Source: a virus
Reading direction: 5' to 3' (one strand)
Virus record (IMG/VR): IMGVR_UViG_3300025141_001001
Coordinates: 1 to 20,321 of that record
DNA length: 20,321 nt
The translations under genes were made by a program, and so were the position numbers. How positions within the stretch are numbered: position 1 is the stretch's first letter; every line of letters starts with the position of its first letter. The notes below the pieces were generated by a model that was not told where the DNA came from, did not search any database, and worked only from the letters and a program-made list of their open reading frames with translations. This document shows positions 11,336 through 20,147 of the stretch, in pieces.

Positions 11336-12064
11336 ATGGATAACGCATTAGAAAATAACAATCTTGAAGAAGGTCAAGTTAATGATAATGTAGGGCAAGA
11401 TGAAGCAACTCAGCAGCAAGAGTCTAAAGGTGATTGGGAATCACAAGCTAAGTATTTCCAATCAGAAAAAGATAAACTTCAAGCTGAAAATCAAAAGTTA
11501 AAGCAATACGAACAAGTTGGAAAAATGTTGGAATCAAGACCTGATATTGTAAATACCATTAGTGGTATGGTTCAGGGTGGTCAACCAGCAGTTCAAGAGA
11601 AACGTGTTGAATTATCTAAGGATGAGTTTGACCCCTGGGAAGCCTATAATGACCCATCGTCTAAGTCGTATAAATTTCGACAACAAGAGTTACAAGAAAC
11701 AATTAATACTGCTGTTCAAAGCCAAGTTGGTGATGTAAAGAAAGAAGTTGGTATGACTAAACTTCAGACTGAACTTGCTAATAAAGGATTAAACCAAGAG
11801 CAAATTACATCTTTTATGGATTTTGCTAGTAAGAATCCTGCGGAATATGGTATTGATGGTGTTATTAATATGTGGCAATCTGTAACTCAAAAGCCGACTG
11901 AAGGTGAAAGTAATACGAATAACCCACTTGATGCAATTCGTCAAAATCAATCAGTTCCTCAACAAGCTGGTATTTTAAATGGTGAGAAACCTGTGAAGAA
12001 AGACGATAAAGATTCAATGTGGGATAATATATTGAAAGCTGGAAGTCGGACTAATGTTTTATAA
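11336..12064 (+). CDS. scaffolding protein (242 aa)
   Basis: Internal assembly scaffold, called from composition and position between portal and capsid. It is acidic and Gln/Asn-rich at the N-terminus, with a coiled coil at about residues 35-60 (AKYFQSEKDKLQAENQKLKQ), then helical segments and a Lys/Asp C-terminus (KKDDKDSMWDNILKAGS) that could bind the capsid shell. The frame is open upstream into the portal gene to 11249, but ATG 11336 has AAAGGAGAG four bases upstream and starts just after the portal stop. No protease signature is seen in it or next to it. Confidence 0.88.
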   Translation: MDNALENNNLEEGQVNDNVGQDEATQQQESKGDWESQAKYFQSEKDKLQAENQKLKQYEQVGKMLESRPDIVNTISGMVQGGQPAVQEKRVELSKDEFDPWEAYNDPSSKSYKFRQQELQETINTAVQSQVGDVKKEVGMTKLQTELANKGLNQEQITSFMDFASKNPAEYGIDGVINMWQSVTQKPTEGESNTNNPLDAIRQNQSVPQQAGILNGEKPVKKDDKDSMWDNILKAGSRTNVL

Positions 12065-12087: not shown

Positions 12088-13443
12088 ATGGCTTACAATA
12101 GTGGGCAAGTGAAATTTGGAACTCCTGGTGCAGTTATTGATAGTACTATACCATCAAGAAGACTGTATGATTTTAGCGATAGGGTCGCAGACTTAGCACC
12201 AGAAGAATCTCCATTTTTTGTATATTTGTCAAAAGTAGGTAAAGTTCCAACTTCCGATAGTCAATTTAGATTTTTGGAAGATAGAACAAAGATAGCAATC
12301 GCTGATAGAAGTTTTTTAGCGAAAGGTGCTCAAACACTTGTTGCAGAAGATAGTTCAATGAATCTTGTCTTTGATACATCAGGTGGAGCAGCAGTTTCAT
12401 GGTTAGTTCCAGGTATGGTTGTAGCAGTTTCTTTAAATGCATCAGGAGCAGGAACAACCCCATCATTTGGTAATGTTCGTATAAATAGTGTAGACCACAC
12501 AACAGATACTAGTCAATCAACATGTAATGTTATATCTGTATCAACTGTTGGTGGTGCTTCAATGTCTATTACGGATAATGCTCAATGTACAGTAATTGGA
12601 ACTTCATTTGTTGAAGGTTCAGGTGCTCCAGATGTATGGTCAGAATCACTTGATAATGGATATGGGTATACTCAAATCTTTAAAACAGCTTGTGAAATGT
12701 CTAATACTGCAAGAGCAACAGTATATCGTGGATATGCTGATGAATGGTCAAGATTATGGAATCTTAAATTAAGAGAACATAAGGTTGACATTGAAAGAGC
12801 AATGCTTTTTGGACAACAAGCATCACAAAGTGGTATTCAATATACTGATGGTGTCGTTGGTCAAATAATAAGAAATTCAACAGTTGAAGGTGGTGGTGGT
12901 CAAGTATCATACACTAAAGACAAATCTTATTATAAATCAAATACAGCAGCTCAATGGACATATGATGATTTACTTAGTGATTTTGAAGTTATGTATGACC
13001 CTGCAAGGGGTGGTTCTTCTTCTAAATTAGGATTAGCATCATTACCAGTAATATCTTTCTTTAATAAGTTGGGTACTTCATCTGGTTTTGTTGCTGGAAC
13101 AGCAGGAACAGCTTCCGAAGATAATCCATTTAGATATAACTTTAATCAATCTAATGGTTCATTTGGACATAAGATAATGAAGATTGATACTATTCATGGT
13201 GATTTAAGTTTAGTTAAAGAACCATTATTTAGAGGATTTTCATCTGGATTCTTAGCTCTTGTTGATTTAGACCATGTATCATATAGACCTCTAGTTGGCA
13301 ACGGTGTTAACAGAGATACATCAATAACAACAAACGTGCAACAAGCAGACGAAGATTTACGAAAAGACATGATTCTTACAGAAGCAGGTCTTGAAGTTTC
13401 TCTTCCTGAAACTCATGCACTGATTAATTTGGAGGGCGTGTAA
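12088..13443 (+). CDS. major capsid protein, SU10-like HK97 fold (451 aa)
   Basis: Forms the icosahedral or elongated shell. The central segment GYTQIFKTACEMSNTARAT, then EWSRLWNLKLREHKVDIERAMLFG (residues about 190-255), is the spine-helix region typical of the SU10-type major capsid family, and TEAGLEVSLPETHALI at the C-terminus is also characteristic. A beta-rich insertion at about residues 95-180 (GMVVAVSLNASGAG, VISVSTVGGASMSIT) probably forms a surface domain. AAGGAG lies eight bases before ATG 12088. Highly expressed head proteins usually have such strong SDs, as here. Confidence 0.92.
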   Translation: MAYNSGQVKFGTPGAVIDSTIPSRRLYDFSDRVADLAPEESPFFVYLSKVGKVPTSDSQFRFLEDRTKIAIADRSFLAKGAQTLVAEDSSMNLVFDTSGGAAVSWLVPGMVVAVSLNASGAGTTPSFGNVRINSVDHTTDTSQSTCNVISVSTVGGASMSITDNAQCTVIGTSFVEGSGAPDVWSESLDNGYGYTQIFKTACEMSNTARATVYRGYADEWSRLWNLKLREHKVDIERAMLFGQQASQSGIQYTDGVVGQIIRNSTVEGGGGQVSYTKDKSYYKSNTAAQWTYDDLLSDFEVMYDPARGGSSSKLGLASLPVISFFNKLGTSSGFVAGTAGTASEDNPFRYNFNQSNGSFGHKIMKIDTIHGDLSLVKEPLFRGFSSGFLALVDLDHVSYRPLVGNGVNRDTSITTNVQQADEDLRKDMILTEAGLEVSLPETHALINLEGV

Positions 13444-13444
13444 A

Positions 13445-14017
13445 ATGAGAAGTGATTTATTGAATGTAAACAGCTCATCAAATGTTTCAAATGATGGGTT
13501 TAGTGAAGTTGGCGGAGTTAGTAAGGTATTAACTTTTGCTGGTGATTGTAAAGAATCTAGATTAGATTCTGCAACTACTCAGTATAGTGCTGGTGATATA
13601 ATACAATATTGTGGAGCATTAGATGTTACTGTTCCAGAAGGTATGCATGACCCAGTAAAGATACTAATCGATAAAGTAATGGTATGCACATCAGTTGTTA
13701 CTGGTAATGCAATGATTGGTCATATTACAGCTGGTACTGCAGCTAATGAAGCTGTTAATGCAGCTCCTACAGGGGCAGTTGAATTGTTTGGCGCAGGTGC
13801 TACACAATTATCCCCAGAGGGATATGCATTAGCTACAACTGCTACAGAAGCTGATGATTTGAATTATAATTCAGCTACAATTGCTTGGTCAGCTCCAAAT
13901 ATCATACTTCCAGTTGCTACTAAATATTTATATGCGTGTGTAACCACAACTATAAATCATGCAACTAACTTTGATGCTGGTAGATGGAACTTAGCAGTTT
14001 ACTATACTGTTCTTTAA
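13445..14017 (+). CDS. probable capsid-associated beta-rich protein (190 aa)
   Basis: Unrecognised by family, but its place directly after the capsid gene (one-base gap, SD GGAGGGCG overlapping the capsid stop) and its Ala/Thr/Val-rich beta composition suggest a decoration or minor head protein. Segments such as VKILIDKVMVCTSVVTGNAMIGHITAG and the closing AGRWNLAVYYTVL look like beta-sandwich strands; it has no membrane segment or signal peptide. Alternative roles (head fibre base, head-tail joining) cannot be excluded. The gene is followed by the structured intergenic element. Confidence 0.75.
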   Translation: MRSDLLNVNSSSNVSNDGFSEVGGVSKVLTFAGDCKESRLDSATTQYSAGDIIQYCGALDVTVPEGMHDPVKILIDKVMVCTSVVTGNAMIGHITAGTAANEAVNAAPTGAVELFGAGATQLSPEGYALATTATEADDLNYNSATIAWSAPNIILPVATKYLYACVTTTINHATNFDAGRWNLAVYYTVL

Positions 14018-14044
14018 ACCTAATCAATAGGGTTTGATAGTTTT

Positions 14045-14102
14045 GTAGAACTATGGAGGCTATCGTATAAAGGGTGGCCTCCGAATCTACTAAGATTTTT
14101 TA
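14045..14102 (+). terminator. large hairpin with T-run (terminator or attenuator)
   Basis: Outer arms GTAGA (14045-14049) and TCTAC (14086-14090) enclose an 8-bp inner stem, GGAGGCTA (14055-14062) with TGGCCTCC (14075-14082, one T-G wobble), closing on a 12-base loop. TAAGA then a run of six T follows. It comes 27 bases after the stop of the 190-aa gene. The T-run starts five bases after the stem, so termination may be partial, stepping down expression after the capsid genes. Confidence 0.6.
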
Positions 14103-14111
14103 ATAATAAAA

Positions 14112-14144
14112 GTACATTCATGCTCTAGCCAGAGCTTTAAGTAC
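14112..14144 (+). promoter_or_regulatory. second hairpin in the same leader
   Basis: GCTCT-AGCC-AGAGC (14122-14135) is a perfect 5-bp stem with a four-base loop, flanked by GTAC at 14112-14115 and 14141-14144 that can pair as an outer helix. It ends eight bases before the AAAGGAG of the next gene, so it may expose or shield that ribosome site, or protect a processed 5' end. Confidence 0.4.
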
Positions 14145-14163
14145 ACTCACAAAGGAGAATAAA

Positions 14164-14463
14164 ATGGCATCAAGTTTACATAAATTCACAGTAGCCGAGG
14201 CTCAAAATGCAGGAATGGGTCAAGCAGGCGCTAAATTCATATCAGACAATGCAGAACATACAGGTAGTTTTATAGCAATACAATGCTTAGAAGATACAGT
14301 ATTTGCGACATTAACTCCATCTGATACAACAAACGGATATGGTGTTGGCTCATATAATGGAAATACAATGGCATCTGAAACAATTCCTGCAGGAATAGTT
14401 ATATATGGTAGATGGACTACTGTAGATTTAACTTCAGGATTAGTTATAGCGTATATAGGTTAA
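14164..14463 (+). CDS. small beta-barrel-like virion protein (99 aa)
   Basis: A 99-aa protein with N-terminal helix (LHKFTVAEAQNAG) and then beta strands: FIAIQCLEDTVFATLTPSD, TIPAGIVIYGRWTTVDLTSG, LVIAYIG. I recall this short type (FIAIQ.LEDTVFA... AG..IYGR... LTSG.VIAY) as common next to capsid genes in metagenomic phages, probably a surface trimer or decoration protein, though its function is not established. Strong SD AAAGGAG, seven bases before the ATG. Likely a virion surface component acting with the LamG proteins that follow. Confidence 0.78.
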   Translation: MASSLHKFTVAEAQNAGMGQAGAKFISDNAEHTGSFIAIQCLEDTVFATLTPSDTTNGYGVGSYNGNTMASETIPAGIVIYGRWTTVDLTSGLVIAYIG

Positions 14464-14466
14464 GCC

Positions 14467-15192
14467 ATGTTAGGATTAGGCTCTAGTTTAACAAAAAGTG
14501 GTATAGTTACACCTGGAATCGTAACTGATAATCTCGTATTAAAACATAATTATAATGCAGCTAGCGTTGTACCTATAAGTGATGGTGCTGCTTATTTTGA
14601 TGGTAGTAGTGAATATATAGATTGTGGGGATGATGCATCATTAAGAACAGCTAGTTTTACAGTATCAGCTTGGGTTTGGTTCCCTGTTCTTGATGTTTAT
14701 ACTGGGATTGTAAGCTCTATTGATAATGCTGATACAAATAATAGGTCAGGGTTTAGCATGACAAAAAAAAGTAATAATGAAGTAGAATGGAGGACTGGAT
14801 ATACTACAGATTTACAGGGAAGCACTTCAAATACTAAATTAGAGGCAAATAGATGGTATCATGTGGCTCTAACTTATGATGGTAGTACTCAAAAAGGTTA
14901 TATAGATGGAGTTTTAGAAGATTCAGATTCTTATGCTAATTATACTGTATCTACTGAAAATTTTATAATTGGAGCGTATTATGCAAGTGCACCTACTTCT
15001 CTTGAGATGAATGGATATATATCTAATGTAGGATATTGGTCTGAAGTTTTAACTCAAGCACAAATCAAATCTATTATGAATAAAAACTATGCAGGTTTAT
15101 CAGATAGTGAAAAAACAAATTTAGTATCATGGTGGAATCTTAGTGCAGATGCAAATGATTCACATGGTTCAAATAATGGGACATTAACATAA
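14467..15192 (+). CDS. LamG-like jelly-roll protein (241 aa)
   Basis: The N-terminal 35 residues (MLGLGSSLTKSGIVTPGIVT) look like a virion-attachment or linker segment, followed by a concanavalin A-like LamG domain at about residues 36-205. Hallmarks: AAYFDGSSEYIDCGDDASL, FTVSAWVWF, ANRWYHVALTYDGSTQKGYIDG, NFIIGAY, MNGYISNVGYWSEVLTQAQI. Such folds bind glycans or proteins, so host-surface or particle-surface adhesion is likely. It is the first of four LamG domains here. The stop shares a base with the next ATG (TAATG). No good SD precedes its own start (AGGTTAAGCC only). Confidence 0.85.
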   Translation: MLGLGSSLTKSGIVTPGIVTDNLVLKHNYNAASVVPISDGAAYFDGSSEYIDCGDDASLRTASFTVSAWVWFPVLDVYTGIVSSIDNADTNNRSGFSMTKKSNNEVEWRTGYTTDLQGSTSNTKLEANRWYHVALTYDGSTQKGYIDGVLEDSDSYANYTVSTENFIIGAYYASAPTSLEMNGYISNVGYWSEVLTQAQIKSIMNKNYAGLSDSEKTNLVSWWNLSADANDSHGSNNGTLT

Positions 15193-18104
15193 TGGCTGCT
15201 ACTATACAAACCATTCAAAAACCAACAAAAGCTAGAGCATTAGATACCTCTGGTAATAATAATCATGGACAAATATATTCAGGTAGAGGATTAGAGTTTG
15301 ATGGGGTTACAGATTATTTAGATGCAGGAGTTACAGCTGCTACTTTAGGAATAACTAATGATGTTACAGTTGCTTGTTGGGTAAAATCTACAGATGCAGC
15401 TACAAGTCAATACCCATTTAATTTTTATCAAAGTACAAGTAATGCTGTAGGTTTAAAAATAAATAGTGATACTATATTAATATTTGATGATGTAGGCGGA
15501 GGAGATGAATCATTTTATGCCACTACAATTAATGATAATACTTGGTATAGAGTAACGATGGTTATAGATAGTTTAGCAGTAAAATTATATCTTAATGGAG
15601 TATTAGTTGGAAGTGGTTCTTCTATCGCTGATGGATTAGATTCATATACTTCTAATTTTTATATTGGAAATAGAAAAGGTTCAGGTGGTAGTAGTTATTT
15701 TACTGGGATGCTATCTGATGTTCAAGTATGGGATGCAGCATGGACAGCAGACGATGTATTATACGATTACAATAATCCAGAACAATTAGCTTTAAATAGA
15801 GGTGGTACATCACTAACAAACTCTAATCTTAAGATATGGTATCCAATGAATGATGGACATAGAGGGCAACAATCATATATACTTGATGCTTCAAATACAG
15901 GGTTGGGGGACGATACAGTAACTAATGGAGATTTTAGTGATGCTTCAGTTACTACTACAAGTGGAGGAAGTAACTTAGCTGGGTGGACAAATGAAAGCAC
16001 TCACGATGGAACTCATTATTGGGAAATTACAAATGAACAGTGTAGGCTTGTTACTAATGATGGAACTGCTACGACTATTAAACAATCTATTTTAACAATA
16101 GGCATTACATATAAATATTCAATTACCGTTATAACATCAGCAGATGGCTTTATAAAAATGCAAAGTGGAAGTGCTCCTTTTTTTGTAGGCACTACTGATA
16201 CTACTGGAACATTTACTGGAACCTTTACAGCAACTCATGCAGACTTAAAAGTAGTTCGTGGAGATGGTTCCGCAGCAAACGACATCACATTTGATAATTT
16301 GTCAATAAAGCCTGTAAACAACAAAAATCATGCAACAACTGTATTTCATGGTGATGAGTTAGTTACTAATGGTAGTTTTAGCGCTGATAGTGATTGGAAT
16401 AAAAATAGTAATTGGTCAATAGGTAGTGGTGTTGCAACAGCTGATGGTACTTCAAGTAATAATATTAATCAAAATGCTGGATTAACAATAGGTAGACAAT
16501 ACATAATATCTTTTGATATAACAGCTTATACATCTGGTGGAGGATTTGCAGTAAGAGTTGGTAGTGGTAGTAGTTATAGTACTCCAGTAACTTCTGTTGC
16601 TACACATACTGTTACACAAACATGCGAAGGTAATGGTTATTTATATATAAACGCAGATTCAAATGTTGTAGGGTCAATAGATAATGTATCTATTAAAGAA
16701 GTAGGTACAGCAACAGGCTGGACAGATGCAGACCAACAACTTCAAATACCACAAACAGCTTTACAATCTTATAATCAATTGGCTTGGTTTGATGGAGTAG
16801 CTGATAATGTTCAAATAGCCGACCATAATGATTTTAGTTTTGGAGATGGTAGTGAGGATTCGGCATTTAGCATATCTGCATGGATAAATATGAATGATGC
16901 TACTTTATTTCCAGTGATAGGTAAGTTTTCTAGTAGTCATAGAGAATGGGTATTTCTTACTGATGGTAGTGATAAACTTTATCTTAAATTATATGACCAG
17001 AGTGCAAGTGTATATCTTATTGGACAGTATGATACAGCATTAACCTCATTTGAAGGACAATGGTTACATGTAGTATCTACTTACGATGCAACAGAGCATC
17101 CTAATGGAATAAAAATATATATAAACGGAGAATCTAAAACACTTGCAGTTACAGATAATGGTAGTTATGTAGCAATGGAAAATAAAAGTGGAGCTGTTAC
17201 AATAGGAGCAAATTTAGGTGATAGTAATTATGCTAATGGAACTATAAATGAAGTATCTATATGGGGAACAGAATTATCTCAAACAGAAATAAATGAACTA
17301 TATAATGATGGTAAAGCTTTCGATGCTTATAATCATTCTAACCGAACAGCTCTTCAAGGTTATTGGAGAAATAATGGACTTGCAACTTGGCAAGATTTAA
17401 CAGCTAATAATAGAGATGGTACTCCAACAAGTTTAACAGAAATAATGTTAATTACAGCAGGAGCAGACGCTACAAGAGATTCTCAAGGATTTCTAATGAA
17501 TAGACAAAGGGTTACTAATAGTTTGAATTATTATCCAGATGTAGGAGGTGGTTCAAATTTAAATATTGGAGCTCAAACAAAAGTTTCTGGAAGTCCATTA
17601 ACTGAAGCTCAATTAGAAGCAATGACTGTAACTCTTTGGTTTAAATCTCCTGATTATTCTAATACTGATGCATTAGTCAATGTAGTTGTCGATGGTGCTG
17701 CTGAGTTTATAGCTCAAGTCGCTGGTAATGGAAGATTCAGATGGACATATGAAATTGACGGATTTAGTGGTAGTGCAAGACATCAAACTAATTCTAGTGT
17801 ATTTTCAACTGATAAATGGACTTTTGTAGCATTTGCCTTAGACCATGATGCTGATACAGATGCAAATAGAGCATTGTGTTATGTAGGTAATGAAGATAAT
17901 GCAGTATCTCTTCAAACTAATGCTGGAACTCAAACTGGTAGTCCAACCAGTGGCATGGAAGATAATTCTATGTGGATAGGTGGAGAAAAAGCAAGTGGAA
18001 GAAAATTTGTTGGAGAAATAGATGATGTATGCGTATATAGCAAAACATTAACATTAGCAGAAATAACAAGAAACTTTAACGCAGGAAAAAGGAGTCACAG
18101 ATAA
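15192..18104 (+). CDS. multi-domain LamG/carbohydrate-binding adhesin (970 aa)
   Basis: Large virion adhesin candidate. In order: LamG 1 (about 33-195; LEFDGVTDYLDAG, WYRVTMVIDSLAVKLYLNG), two related beta-sandwich, carbohydrate-binding-like modules (about 240-376 and 388-505; both begin VTNG-x-FS and end IxFDNxSIK or SIDNVSIKEV), LamG 2 (530-705; AWFDGVADNVQIAD, QWLHVVSTYDATEHPNGIKI) and LamG 3 (768-965; WFKSPDYSN, KWTFVAFALDHDADTD, GEIDDVCVYSKTLTLAEI). No enzymatic motif or signal peptide is seen. It starts by TAATG after the 241-aa LamG gene, without SD. Its place among head rather than tail genes suggests capsid fibres, though a tail fibre is possible. Confidence 0.88.
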   Translation: MAATIQTIQKPTKARALDTSGNNNHGQIYSGRGLEFDGVTDYLDAGVTAATLGITNDVTVACWVKSTDAATSQYPFNFYQSTSNAVGLKINSDTILIFDDVGGGDESFYATTINDNTWYRVTMVIDSLAVKLYLNGVLVGSGSSIADGLDSYTSNFYIGNRKGSGGSSYFTGMLSDVQVWDAAWTADDVLYDYNNPEQLALNRGGTSLTNSNLKIWYPMNDGHRGQQSYILDASNTGLGDDTVTNGDFSDASVTTTSGGSNLAGWTNESTHDGTHYWEITNEQCRLVTNDGTATTIKQSILTIGITYKYSITVITSADGFIKMQSGSAPFFVGTTDTTGTFTGTFTATHADLKVVRGDGSAANDITFDNLSIKPVNNKNHATTVFHGDELVTNGSFSADSDWNKNSNWSIGSGVATADGTSSNNINQNAGLTIGRQYIISFDITAYTSGGGFAVRVGSGSSYSTPVTSVATHTVTQTCEGNGYLYINADSNVVGSIDNVSIKEVGTATGWTDADQQLQIPQTALQSYNQLAWFDGVADNVQIADHNDFSFGDGSEDSAFSISAWINMNDATLFPVIGKFSSSHREWVFLTDGSDKLYLKLYDQSASVYLIGQYDTALTSFEGQWLHVVSTYDATEHPNGIKIYINGESKTLAVTDNGSYVAMENKSGAVTIGANLGDSNYANGTINEVSIWGTELSQTEINELYNDGKAFDAYNHSNRTALQGYWRNNGLATWQDLTANNRDGTPTSLTEIMLITAGADATRDSQGFLMNRQRVTNSLNYYPDVGGGSNLNIGAQTKVSGSPLTEAQLEAMTVTLWFKSPDYSNTDALVNVVVDGAAEFIAQVAGNGRFRWTYEIDGFSGSARHQTNSSVFSTDKWTFVAFALDHDADTDANRALCYVGNEDNAVSLQTNAGTQTGSPTSGMEDNSMWIGGEKASGRKFVGEIDDVCVYSKTLTLAEITRNFNAGKRSHR

Positions 18105-18457
18105 TGGCACATTATGAAATGTATTTTTGTCTACCAAGCAGTGCATATGATAGTGCTGTTGGTACCAAAATAAAAGAACTATATCCAATAGTAGAATCAG
18201 TAGATGAGGATGATAATATTACTTATGTATCTGCACCTACTTGGCACGATATAATATTTGCAGGTAAAGTAGGAGCTCCAAGATATTCACACGATAAAGC
18301 ATATTGTATTATCAAAGGTGAATGGTCAGCAAAAGATGGAGTATTATCAGAGCTTATAGCATTAGGAGCAAGTAAAGCATATCCTAATTTTAGTGTATTA
18401 ACTAAGTCAGAAGCACAAACTTTGGCTAATAGTGATACATTTGTAAGTGAAGACTAA
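18104..18457 (+). CDS. unknown protein following the LamG adhesin (117 aa)
   Basis: Not recognised. Mixed alpha/beta, 117 aa, rich in Tyr, His and Trp (MAHYEMYFCLPSSAYDSAV, PTWHDIIFAGKVGAPRY, AYCIIKGEWSAKDG). AAAAGGAGTC lies eight bases before ATG 18104, and the start shares one base with the adhesin stop. A small protein coupled directly behind a large fibre-like gene is often an assembly chaperone or fibre tip, which is the best inference here; nothing in the sequence proves it. Confidence 0.7.
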   Translation: MAHYEMYFCLPSSAYDSAVGTKIKELYPIVESVDEDDNITYVSAPTWHDIIFAGKVGAPRYSHDKAYCIIKGEWSAKDGVLSELIALGASKAYPNFSVLTKSEAQTLANSDTFVSED

Positions 18458-18480: not shown

Positions 18481-18696
18481 ATGAAAAGAAATAGAACATA
18501 TTATTGCAACTCTTGTAAAGAATGTATTGACTTTAAAGCAAATGATGACCATATATGTAAGTGTGGATATATTTTCGGTAAAACAGTTAATATAAAAAAT
18601 GGTATTAATATGAGAACAACATGGAGTGGACAAACAAAGGTCGAATTTAGTCAAACAACAATTGATGATGATATAGCAGATAGGAATAGAAGATAA
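18481..18696 (+). CDS. small zinc-ribbon protein (71 aa)
   Basis: Cys motif CNSCKEC (C9, C12, C15) and CKCG (C26, C28) with H24 nearby: a compact zinc ribbon in the first 30 residues. The remaining 40 residues are polar. AGAGGGAA lies just before ATG 18481. It is the second zinc-ribbon gene in the late operon and, like the first, starts among structural genes, so a role in virion assembly or in late regulation cannot be separated. Its stop overlaps the adaptor start as TAATG. Confidence 0.75.
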   Translation: MKRNRTYYCNSCKECIDFKANDDHICKCGYIFGKTVNIKNGINMRTTWSGQTKVEFSQTTIDDDIADRNRR

Positions 18697-19748: not shown

Positions 19749-20147
19749 ATGGCAACAAATAAAAGAACATATCCAAATGATTATTTTGTATGGTATAATG
19801 ATGACAATAGACTTGCTATATTATCTGAAGATACAACTGCTACGTCAGGAGAAAGAACAAAAGAAAAATATGATACTTACCAAGGAGATGATGTAACTGC
19901 AGGAATAAGAATTACATATAAATCAAAATATGGAACAATTGATGCTCAAACAGAAGATTTAAAAACAGAAGCTGGTTTAGATTCAGGATTACATCCTGCA
20001 GTAGTATGTTATATGAAATCAAGAATGTTTGAAGATTCAGGAGATGTACAAAGAGCTCAATATTTTAGAGCAATGTATGATAAGATGGTAAAACAATATC
20101 CTTTAAGAAAAAGTGGTGTAAGGACATTATCAGTACCTAGAATGTAA
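19749..20147 (+). CDS. C-terminal half of a split adaptor-like protein (132 aa)
   Basis: Begins with a Y..DYFVWYNDDNRLAILSED strand region and continues to GIRITYKSKYGTI and a C-terminal helix (HPAVVCYMKSRMFEDSGDVQRAQYFRAMYDKM) of the kind that ends single-chain adaptors. Together with the 112-aa gene it makes up one apparent adaptor fold. It has its own SD (TAGGAGAATT, ATG 19749), so the split is used rather than being a simple frameshift. The final RTLSVPRM may contact the portal or nozzle. Confidence 0.75.
   Translation: MATNKRTYPNDYFVWYNDDNRLAILSEDTTATSGERTKEKYDTYQGDDVTAGIRITYKSKYGTIDAQTEDLKTEAGLDSGLHPAVVCYMKSRMFEDSGDVQRAQYFRAMYDKMVKQYPLRKSGVRTLSVPRM

Follow-up and report, generated by a model that had tools for sequence, protein, structure and literature searches.

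The closest described system to the one considered here is the head spike of the gene transfer agent RcGTA, in which a pentamer of the base protein Rcc01079 sits on a pentamer of the major capsid protein (MCP) and holds one fibre (PMC7296036). Residues 2–10 of the fibre, IALGLGLGL, form a five-point star in the pockets of the base, and the N-termini of the base bind the capsid protein, with Glu12 assisting (PMC7296036). The fibre binds the capsule of the host (PMC7296036; PMC10218006). Here we describe a viral contig, IMG/VR record IMGVR_UViG_3300025141_001001, which was analyzed over its whole length of 20,321 bases (the window). It contains a cassette of four genes: a small gene (g99), two genes for LamG-containing adhesins (Lam1 and Lam2), and a second small gene (g117). 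We assign a probability of about 0.72 to the view that this cassette, at positions 14164–18457, encodes a head spike built like that of RcGTA on a base protein of a new family, placing lectin-type adhesins on the head and not on the tail.

The window encodes a terminase, a P22-like portal, a SU10-type MCP (PF17236), and SU10-type adaptors (PF24175), and a near-identical genome is present on a 38.4 kb contig (L002) whose capsid protein is 100% identical. Its MCP and adaptor families match those of SU10 and Kuravirus, in which the relevant proteins are the MCP gp9, gp10, the adaptor gp11, and the long tail fibres gp12/gp13. The order of genes in the window is MCP, decoration-type gene, cassette, and SU10-type adaptors, as given in a preliminary description of this DNA. 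The cassette fills a slot comparable to that of SU10 gp10, which may be a minor capsid protein and whose number falls between those of MCP and adaptor, and it precedes the adaptors instead of following them directly, as gp12/gp13 do. Gp10 went undetected in the SU10 virion, and the numbers of the long tail fibres come after that of the adaptor (PMC9509320). The full unit is larger than first reported, since it opens with the 99-residue g99 and closes with g117; both g99 and the N-terminal anchor of the adhesin were missed in that first reading. The features of the cassette are as follows.

14164–14463, + strand: g99, 99 residues, proposed head-spike base protein (adjacency to adhesin, Glu12, predicted fold)
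14467–15192, + strand: Lam1, 241 residues, proposed head-spike fibre, with the N-terminal anchor MLGLGSSL and one LamG domain
14467–14490, + strand: stretch encoding MLGLGSSL (Lam1 residues 1–8), the proposed anchor peptide
15192–18104, + strand: Lam2, 970 residues, three LamG domains and two CBM4-like modules, translationally coupled to Lam1
15909–16316, + strand: CBM4-like module 1 (Lam2 residues 240–375)
16350–16706, + strand: CBM4-like module 2 (Lam2 residues 387–505)
18104–18457, + strand: g117, 117 residues, coupled to Lam2 and travelling with it

Like RcGTA (base Rcc01079/GhsA, fibre Rcc01080/GhsB; NF048002 and NF048003), the window has a small base gene and an adhesin gene, with a Leu/Gly anchor at the N-terminus of the adhesin and an acidic residue 12 in the N-terminus of the base, and a glycan-binding role is proposed for its adhesins. 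The two differ in that the proposed base is unrelated in sequence, the adhesin is of LamG/CBM4-like type and split over two polypeptides instead of carrying the GTA spike-fibre domain, and the genome is that of a marine podovirus-type phage. A further comparison is provided by Rhodobacter phage RcapNL (JQ066768, 20588–21279), whose spike base is a true family member (NF048002, 7.9e-31). The next gene begins two bases further on, and its product, which opens with MGLGLGIGLGL, contains a module 26% identical to module 2 of Lam2 (E 8e-6, pairwise BLAST), a relationship that was missed when the hidden Markov model of the module was compared with the RcapNL fibre. RcapNL therefore resembles the window in its two-gene layout, LGLG-type start, and CBM4-like module, and differs from it in its NF048002 base, in an adhesin of only 144 residues, and in a position after the tail genes. 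The spike-fibre domain NF048003 was not matched in Lam1, and it is also missing from the LGLG protein of RcapNL, so that this domain does not define the arrangement.

Both adhesins have a clear domain content. Laminin_G_3 (PF13385) is matched once in Lam1 (84 bits) and three times in Lam2 (185 bits in total), above the Pfam gathering cut-off of 27.6 bits in each protein, and a search of the genome places the four domains at 14599–15069, 15303–15758, 16794–17294, and 17610–18065. The two VTNGxFS...DNxSIK modules of Lam2 share 32% identity (two-sequence E 1.6e-4). Lam1 overlaps Lam2 by one base, as Lam2 does g117, and g99 ends three bases before Lam1. These results bear out the preliminary description, which had recognized four LamG folds and a duplicated module in two coupled genes, with no enzymatic motif; no enzyme family was matched by Lam1 or Lam2. 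Its proposed search against LamG and carbohydrate-binding module (CBM) families gave a clear answer for LamG and a partial one for the modules. The profile of the module family matches CBM4-type domains in the PDB (1gu3, 1ulo, 1gui, and 4mgq; E 8e-6 to 6e-5), and three members of the family match Pfam CBM_4_9 (PF02018, best 1.8e-7), with the modules of the window themselves under the cut-off. The termini of Lam2 are kept in relatives (KPT..RA.DTSG at the N-terminus and GKRSHR at the C-terminus), and g117, which may be an assembly helper or a cap, accompanies Lam1–Lam2 in them.

The evidence that carries the head-spike reading is the association between g99 and the start of the adhesin. A profile search with g99 led to 80 loci, and an adhesin lies directly 3′ of g99 in nearly all of ∼90 distinct copies. 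An M(x)LGL start is found in 59 of the 88 non-redundant genes after g99, compared with none of 1636 other open reading frames (ORFs) of the same loci, a count tempered as support by the definition of the pattern after examples had been seen and by the mutual relatedness of the loci. In 16 of the other 29 cases g99 is followed, 0–4 nt downstream, by a mini-ORF of 41–50 residues with an alternating hydrophobic start (MLKLGLSV, MLNLGLKL, MLGLFQTL, or MPRLGTRL), which precedes a tail-fibre-like gene. The products of these mini-ORFs possibly serve the spike base as anchor peptides in their own right. By contrast, the LamG proteins encoded after F7, a different small protein (∼170 residues, with g99 at ∼100) that replaces g99 in its slot, begin MFTS or MFTK and lack LGLG. 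A degenerate-DNA search for an RcGTA-like fibre start found nothing in 385 alphaproteobacterial genomes, and the base sequence used for comparison came from RcapNL and the PDB. The mini-ORFs occur in L158, L160, L164, L167, L170, L171, L175, L177, L179, L181, and L182, and have the common tail ARL(V/A)RDxW...ERKWxNI.

The g99 protein itself has several properties that recall known spike bases. Glu12 is invariant (77 of 77 sequences), and a cation-binding Glu stands at this very position in the RcGTA base. An AlphaFold model of g99 (pLDDT confidence score 72) has as its top VIA-align match chain A1 of 6tb9, with Z 6.3 over 79 residues, and this 84-residue chain carries the name Head spike base Rcc01079. 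The same model matches chain 8cjz_h, the Spike Base Protein of the Cobetia phage Carin-1, with Z 4.9; the fold predicted for g99 is similar to that of this protein, and the sequences are unrelated. Together, these data modestly suggest, on the basis of predicted structure, that g99 works like the RcGTA spike base. It was kept outside the NF048002 family because there is no detectable sequence relation. No named isolate with g99 was found by tblastn of the phage collection using three different g99 queries. Some phages have two or three copies of g99, as in L153 (7977–9361 and onwards), L157 (6233, 8001), and L176 (7977, 9846), and one copy in L153 forms part of a 336-residue protein.

Several results on the base and the anchor weigh against this assignment of function. 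The confidence of the g99 models is moderate (pLDDT 71–72), and matches at Z < 8 may reflect a common small barrel. A second, deeper model was no higher in confidence (pLDDT 71–72) and matched the Carin-1 base with Z 4.5, with the RcGTA base absent among the listed matches. At the level of sequence, g99 has no match to the spike base model NF048002 (RCAP_Rcc01079), which the bases of RcapNL and RcapMu match at 7.9e-31 and 5.3e-21, and hhalign of the g99 profile with the RcGTA base gave a probability of 0.4%. The hydrophobic residues of the Lam1 anchor are at positions 2, 4, and 8 only, compared with five in RcGTA; in several lineages the protein after the mini-ORF is tail-fibre-like, and some g99 copies are followed by no adhesin. 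Homology in sequence to the RcGTA base was rejected for g99, for F7, and for the decoration family of the neighbouring gene, as profile comparisons gave none.

A mechanism can be proposed by analogy with RcGTA. In this model, small pentamers of g99 would occupy the non-portal vertices of the capsid, where their conserved N-termini (Glu12) would contact the capsid protein. Each pentamer would hold Lam1 by the N-terminal LGLG peptide, so that the LamG domain points away from the head. Lam2, whose translation is coupled to that of Lam1, would attach either to Lam1 or to the base and enlarge the glycan-binding surface with three LamG domains and two CBM4-like modules, although the presence of this 970-residue protein itself on the head is putative. 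The spikes would bind glycans of the cell surface or capsule reversibly, before engagement of the tail.

The most serious alternative is that the two LamG proteins belong to the tail, as fibres or as adhesins at its tip, that g99 is a tail adaptor docking to the adaptor or portal ring, and that the capsid-adjacent order in the window is a mere rearrangement. The position of the cassette in relatives lends this some weight. The preliminary description had asked whether related phages keep the genes at the same place, and they do not always: labelled g99 copies follow capsid or decoration genes in ∼31 cases and adaptor-type genes in ∼36, about equally often. Furthermore, a 46 kb phage contig in the single-cell genome of Prochlorococcus sp. 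AG-436-M02 (L183 / G047:C10; QCPL01000010.1) has g99–Lam1–Lam2–g117 ∼15 kb downstream of the capsid gene, after a large tail gene and among tail or internal virion genes. These positions count against a head location, as do the tail-fibre-like proteins of GIGT and SSYEQLL types that fill the same downstream slot in some lineages, and a weak match of three g99 members to a PHROG named tail protein (E 0.0013). Gene position was accordingly rejected as proof of head location, since many relatives have the cassette downstream of the adaptors or in yet another place. A complementary distribution of the LamG cassette and tail-fibre genes was also considered and no rule emerged, with many relatives lacking both and one (L027) having both.

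Other observations favour the head over the tail. The solved head spike likewise pairs an LGLG-anchored adhesin with a neighbouring small gene for the base. In phages with unrelated MCPs (phrog_267, phrog_544/267, and phrog_334), g99 and its partner lie directly after the MCP gene or within one to two small genes of it, and in L182 g99 follows the MCP gene upstream of the tape measure protein (phrog_3779, 3.8e-16). The relative L027 contains the cassette and, downstream of its adaptors, a tail fibre gene of its own (phrog_9017). Names assigned to such proteins are also a poor guide: the true spike base of RcapNL is annotated 'tail fiber protein', which indicates how easily spike bases are misnamed. 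Head location is favoured because of the LGLG anchor, the MCP-adjacent g99 across capsid families, and the separate tail fibre of L027, and we regard the tail alternative as unlikely. The proposal in the preliminary description that these are head-borne, glycan-binding adhesins is therefore the best-supported reading, although its argument from position is weak and the support comes from the LGLG anchor and the base-like g99. Such an attachment layer would be unusual, as was suggested, but there are precedents in RcGTA and in the head fibres of other phages.

The adhesins might instead be borne on the head in a different geometry, as decoration proteins or head fibres at the centres of hexamers (compare Hoc, pb10, gp8.5, and the head fibres of crAss001), with g99 as a hexamer-bound linker. 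Known phage head fibres are often on hexamers and glycan-binding (PMC7602432; PMC10172136), and gp10 of SU10, with its predicted Ig-fold, is numbered between the MCP gp9 and the adaptor gp11 (PMC9509320). The turrets of HFTV1 have a hexameric base, and this virus also has a head protein with a galactose-binding-like domain (PMC12494034). However, the LGLG anchor matches the pentameric base of RcGTA specifically, and this pentameric base is one of the two spike-base chains that the g99 model matches; a hexamer-bound arrangement seems improbable. That the LamG proteins are not part of the virion, and are secreted or displayed at the cell surface during infection, is very improbable: virion-protein homology was detected only in LamG-bearing PHROGs, but the genes lie within the structural block, g99 is their companion in many phages, and the best PHROG match of the LamG proteins is a virion structural protein (phrog_8510, 1.4e-31).

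Comparison of phages points towards mobility of the head-spike cassette. The Prochlorococcus single-cell phage and the window have capsid proteins that are 25% identical, compared with 83% for g117 and 80% for the copy of window gene g135, and the difference between g117 and the capsid indicates that the cassette moves between phages. At least four kinds of capsid are represented among the marine phages that carry it. The single-cell contig is possibly a lead to the host. A wider proposal, which we hold tentatively and at somewhat less than even odds, is that marine phages share a mobile head-spike cassette consisting of a base unrelated in sequence to that of RcGTA and a replaceable partner, either an LGLG-anchored glycan-binding fibre or an anchor mini-protein of 41–50 residues. 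This cassette would pass among phages of podovirus type and phages with long tails, with four or more types of capsid between them. In the SU10-type lineage, a pseudoknotted RNA not described before would often part it from the capsid genes, and this RNA may set the expression of capsid versus spike.

If the head-spike reading is correct, a large group of uncultured marine phages would have vertex-mounted lectin spikes on the head, and it would be the capsid that first touches the host, which is possibly Prochlorococcus. The mechanism, worked out to date in RcGTA, would then extend to an unnamed base family. The combination of a small gene and an LGLG start would provide a simple sequence signature for head spikes, some of which are perhaps now annotated as tail fibres, and attachment of capsids to glycans in the ocean would become directly testable.

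The genes and elements surrounding the cassette in the window are listed below.

12088–13443: SU10-type MCP (family match PF17236)
13445–14017, + strand: decoration-type gene g190 (family F1), with the N-terminal peptide MRSDxLNxNS and then variable domains
14018–14163, core 14018–14093, + strand: structured, pseudoknotted RNA element in the gap that separates the decoration gene from the spike cassette; it adjoins the spike genes without belonging to them
Starts at 18696 and 19403: SU10-type adaptors

The 146-nt gap between the decoration gene and g99 contains a conserved RNA that folds into four helices, a pseudoknot among them, and has the conserved loop ATCGTATAAAGGGT. Covariation is seen in all four helices: 99.0% of 501 cells are paired and 15 of 21 pairs are changed on both sides, compared with 33–43% paired in slid controls. 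There is no family match in Rfam 15. The element was located in relatives at 11799–11874 in L044, 11315–11390 in L057, 5759–5831 in L109, and 19905–19984 (− strand) in L193. Sequences used for building the covariance model match it by construction; outside them it was found in L044, L049, L053, L057, L061, L109, L110, L141, and L193. In many relatives, among them the Prochlorococcus single-cell phage (E 7e-6), the model places the element behind the decoration gene regardless of the gene that comes next, and for this reason we consider that it belongs to the end of the capsid genes and not to the spike. It may mark a boundary of the capsid mRNA or contribute to the stability of that transcript. 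Scans of the region for promoters and terminators gave a signal no higher than in shuffles.

The wider arrangement was followed in 80 relatives collected by a search with the capsid protein of the window. Their recurrent order is capsid, decoration-type gene, g99 or F7, adhesin or other proteins, a zinc-ribbon-like gene, and adaptors. A decoration protein of family F1 follows the MCP in most of them, and members of this family have a common N-terminal MRSDxLNxNS with quite different domains behind it, as if the peptide were a capsid-docking tag with exchangeable domains. A 302-residue version of F1 is present in L028, L029, L030, L032, and L035. F7 and g99 have in common only an N-terminal LHKYTVxE, in some members (L044 11938, L070 3673, L075 9436; hhalign E 1.3e-4), and this similarity suggests that the two different small proteins dock at one and the same site. 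Where relatives lack the LamG cassette, the slot between the small structural gene and the adaptor is filled by Lys/Gly-rich proteins with the motif GPSHxxGGIxIEVEGGEYxIKKxSVN, often two in tandem (L026 5109–5321, L049 4427–5865, L065 4694–5775, and others).

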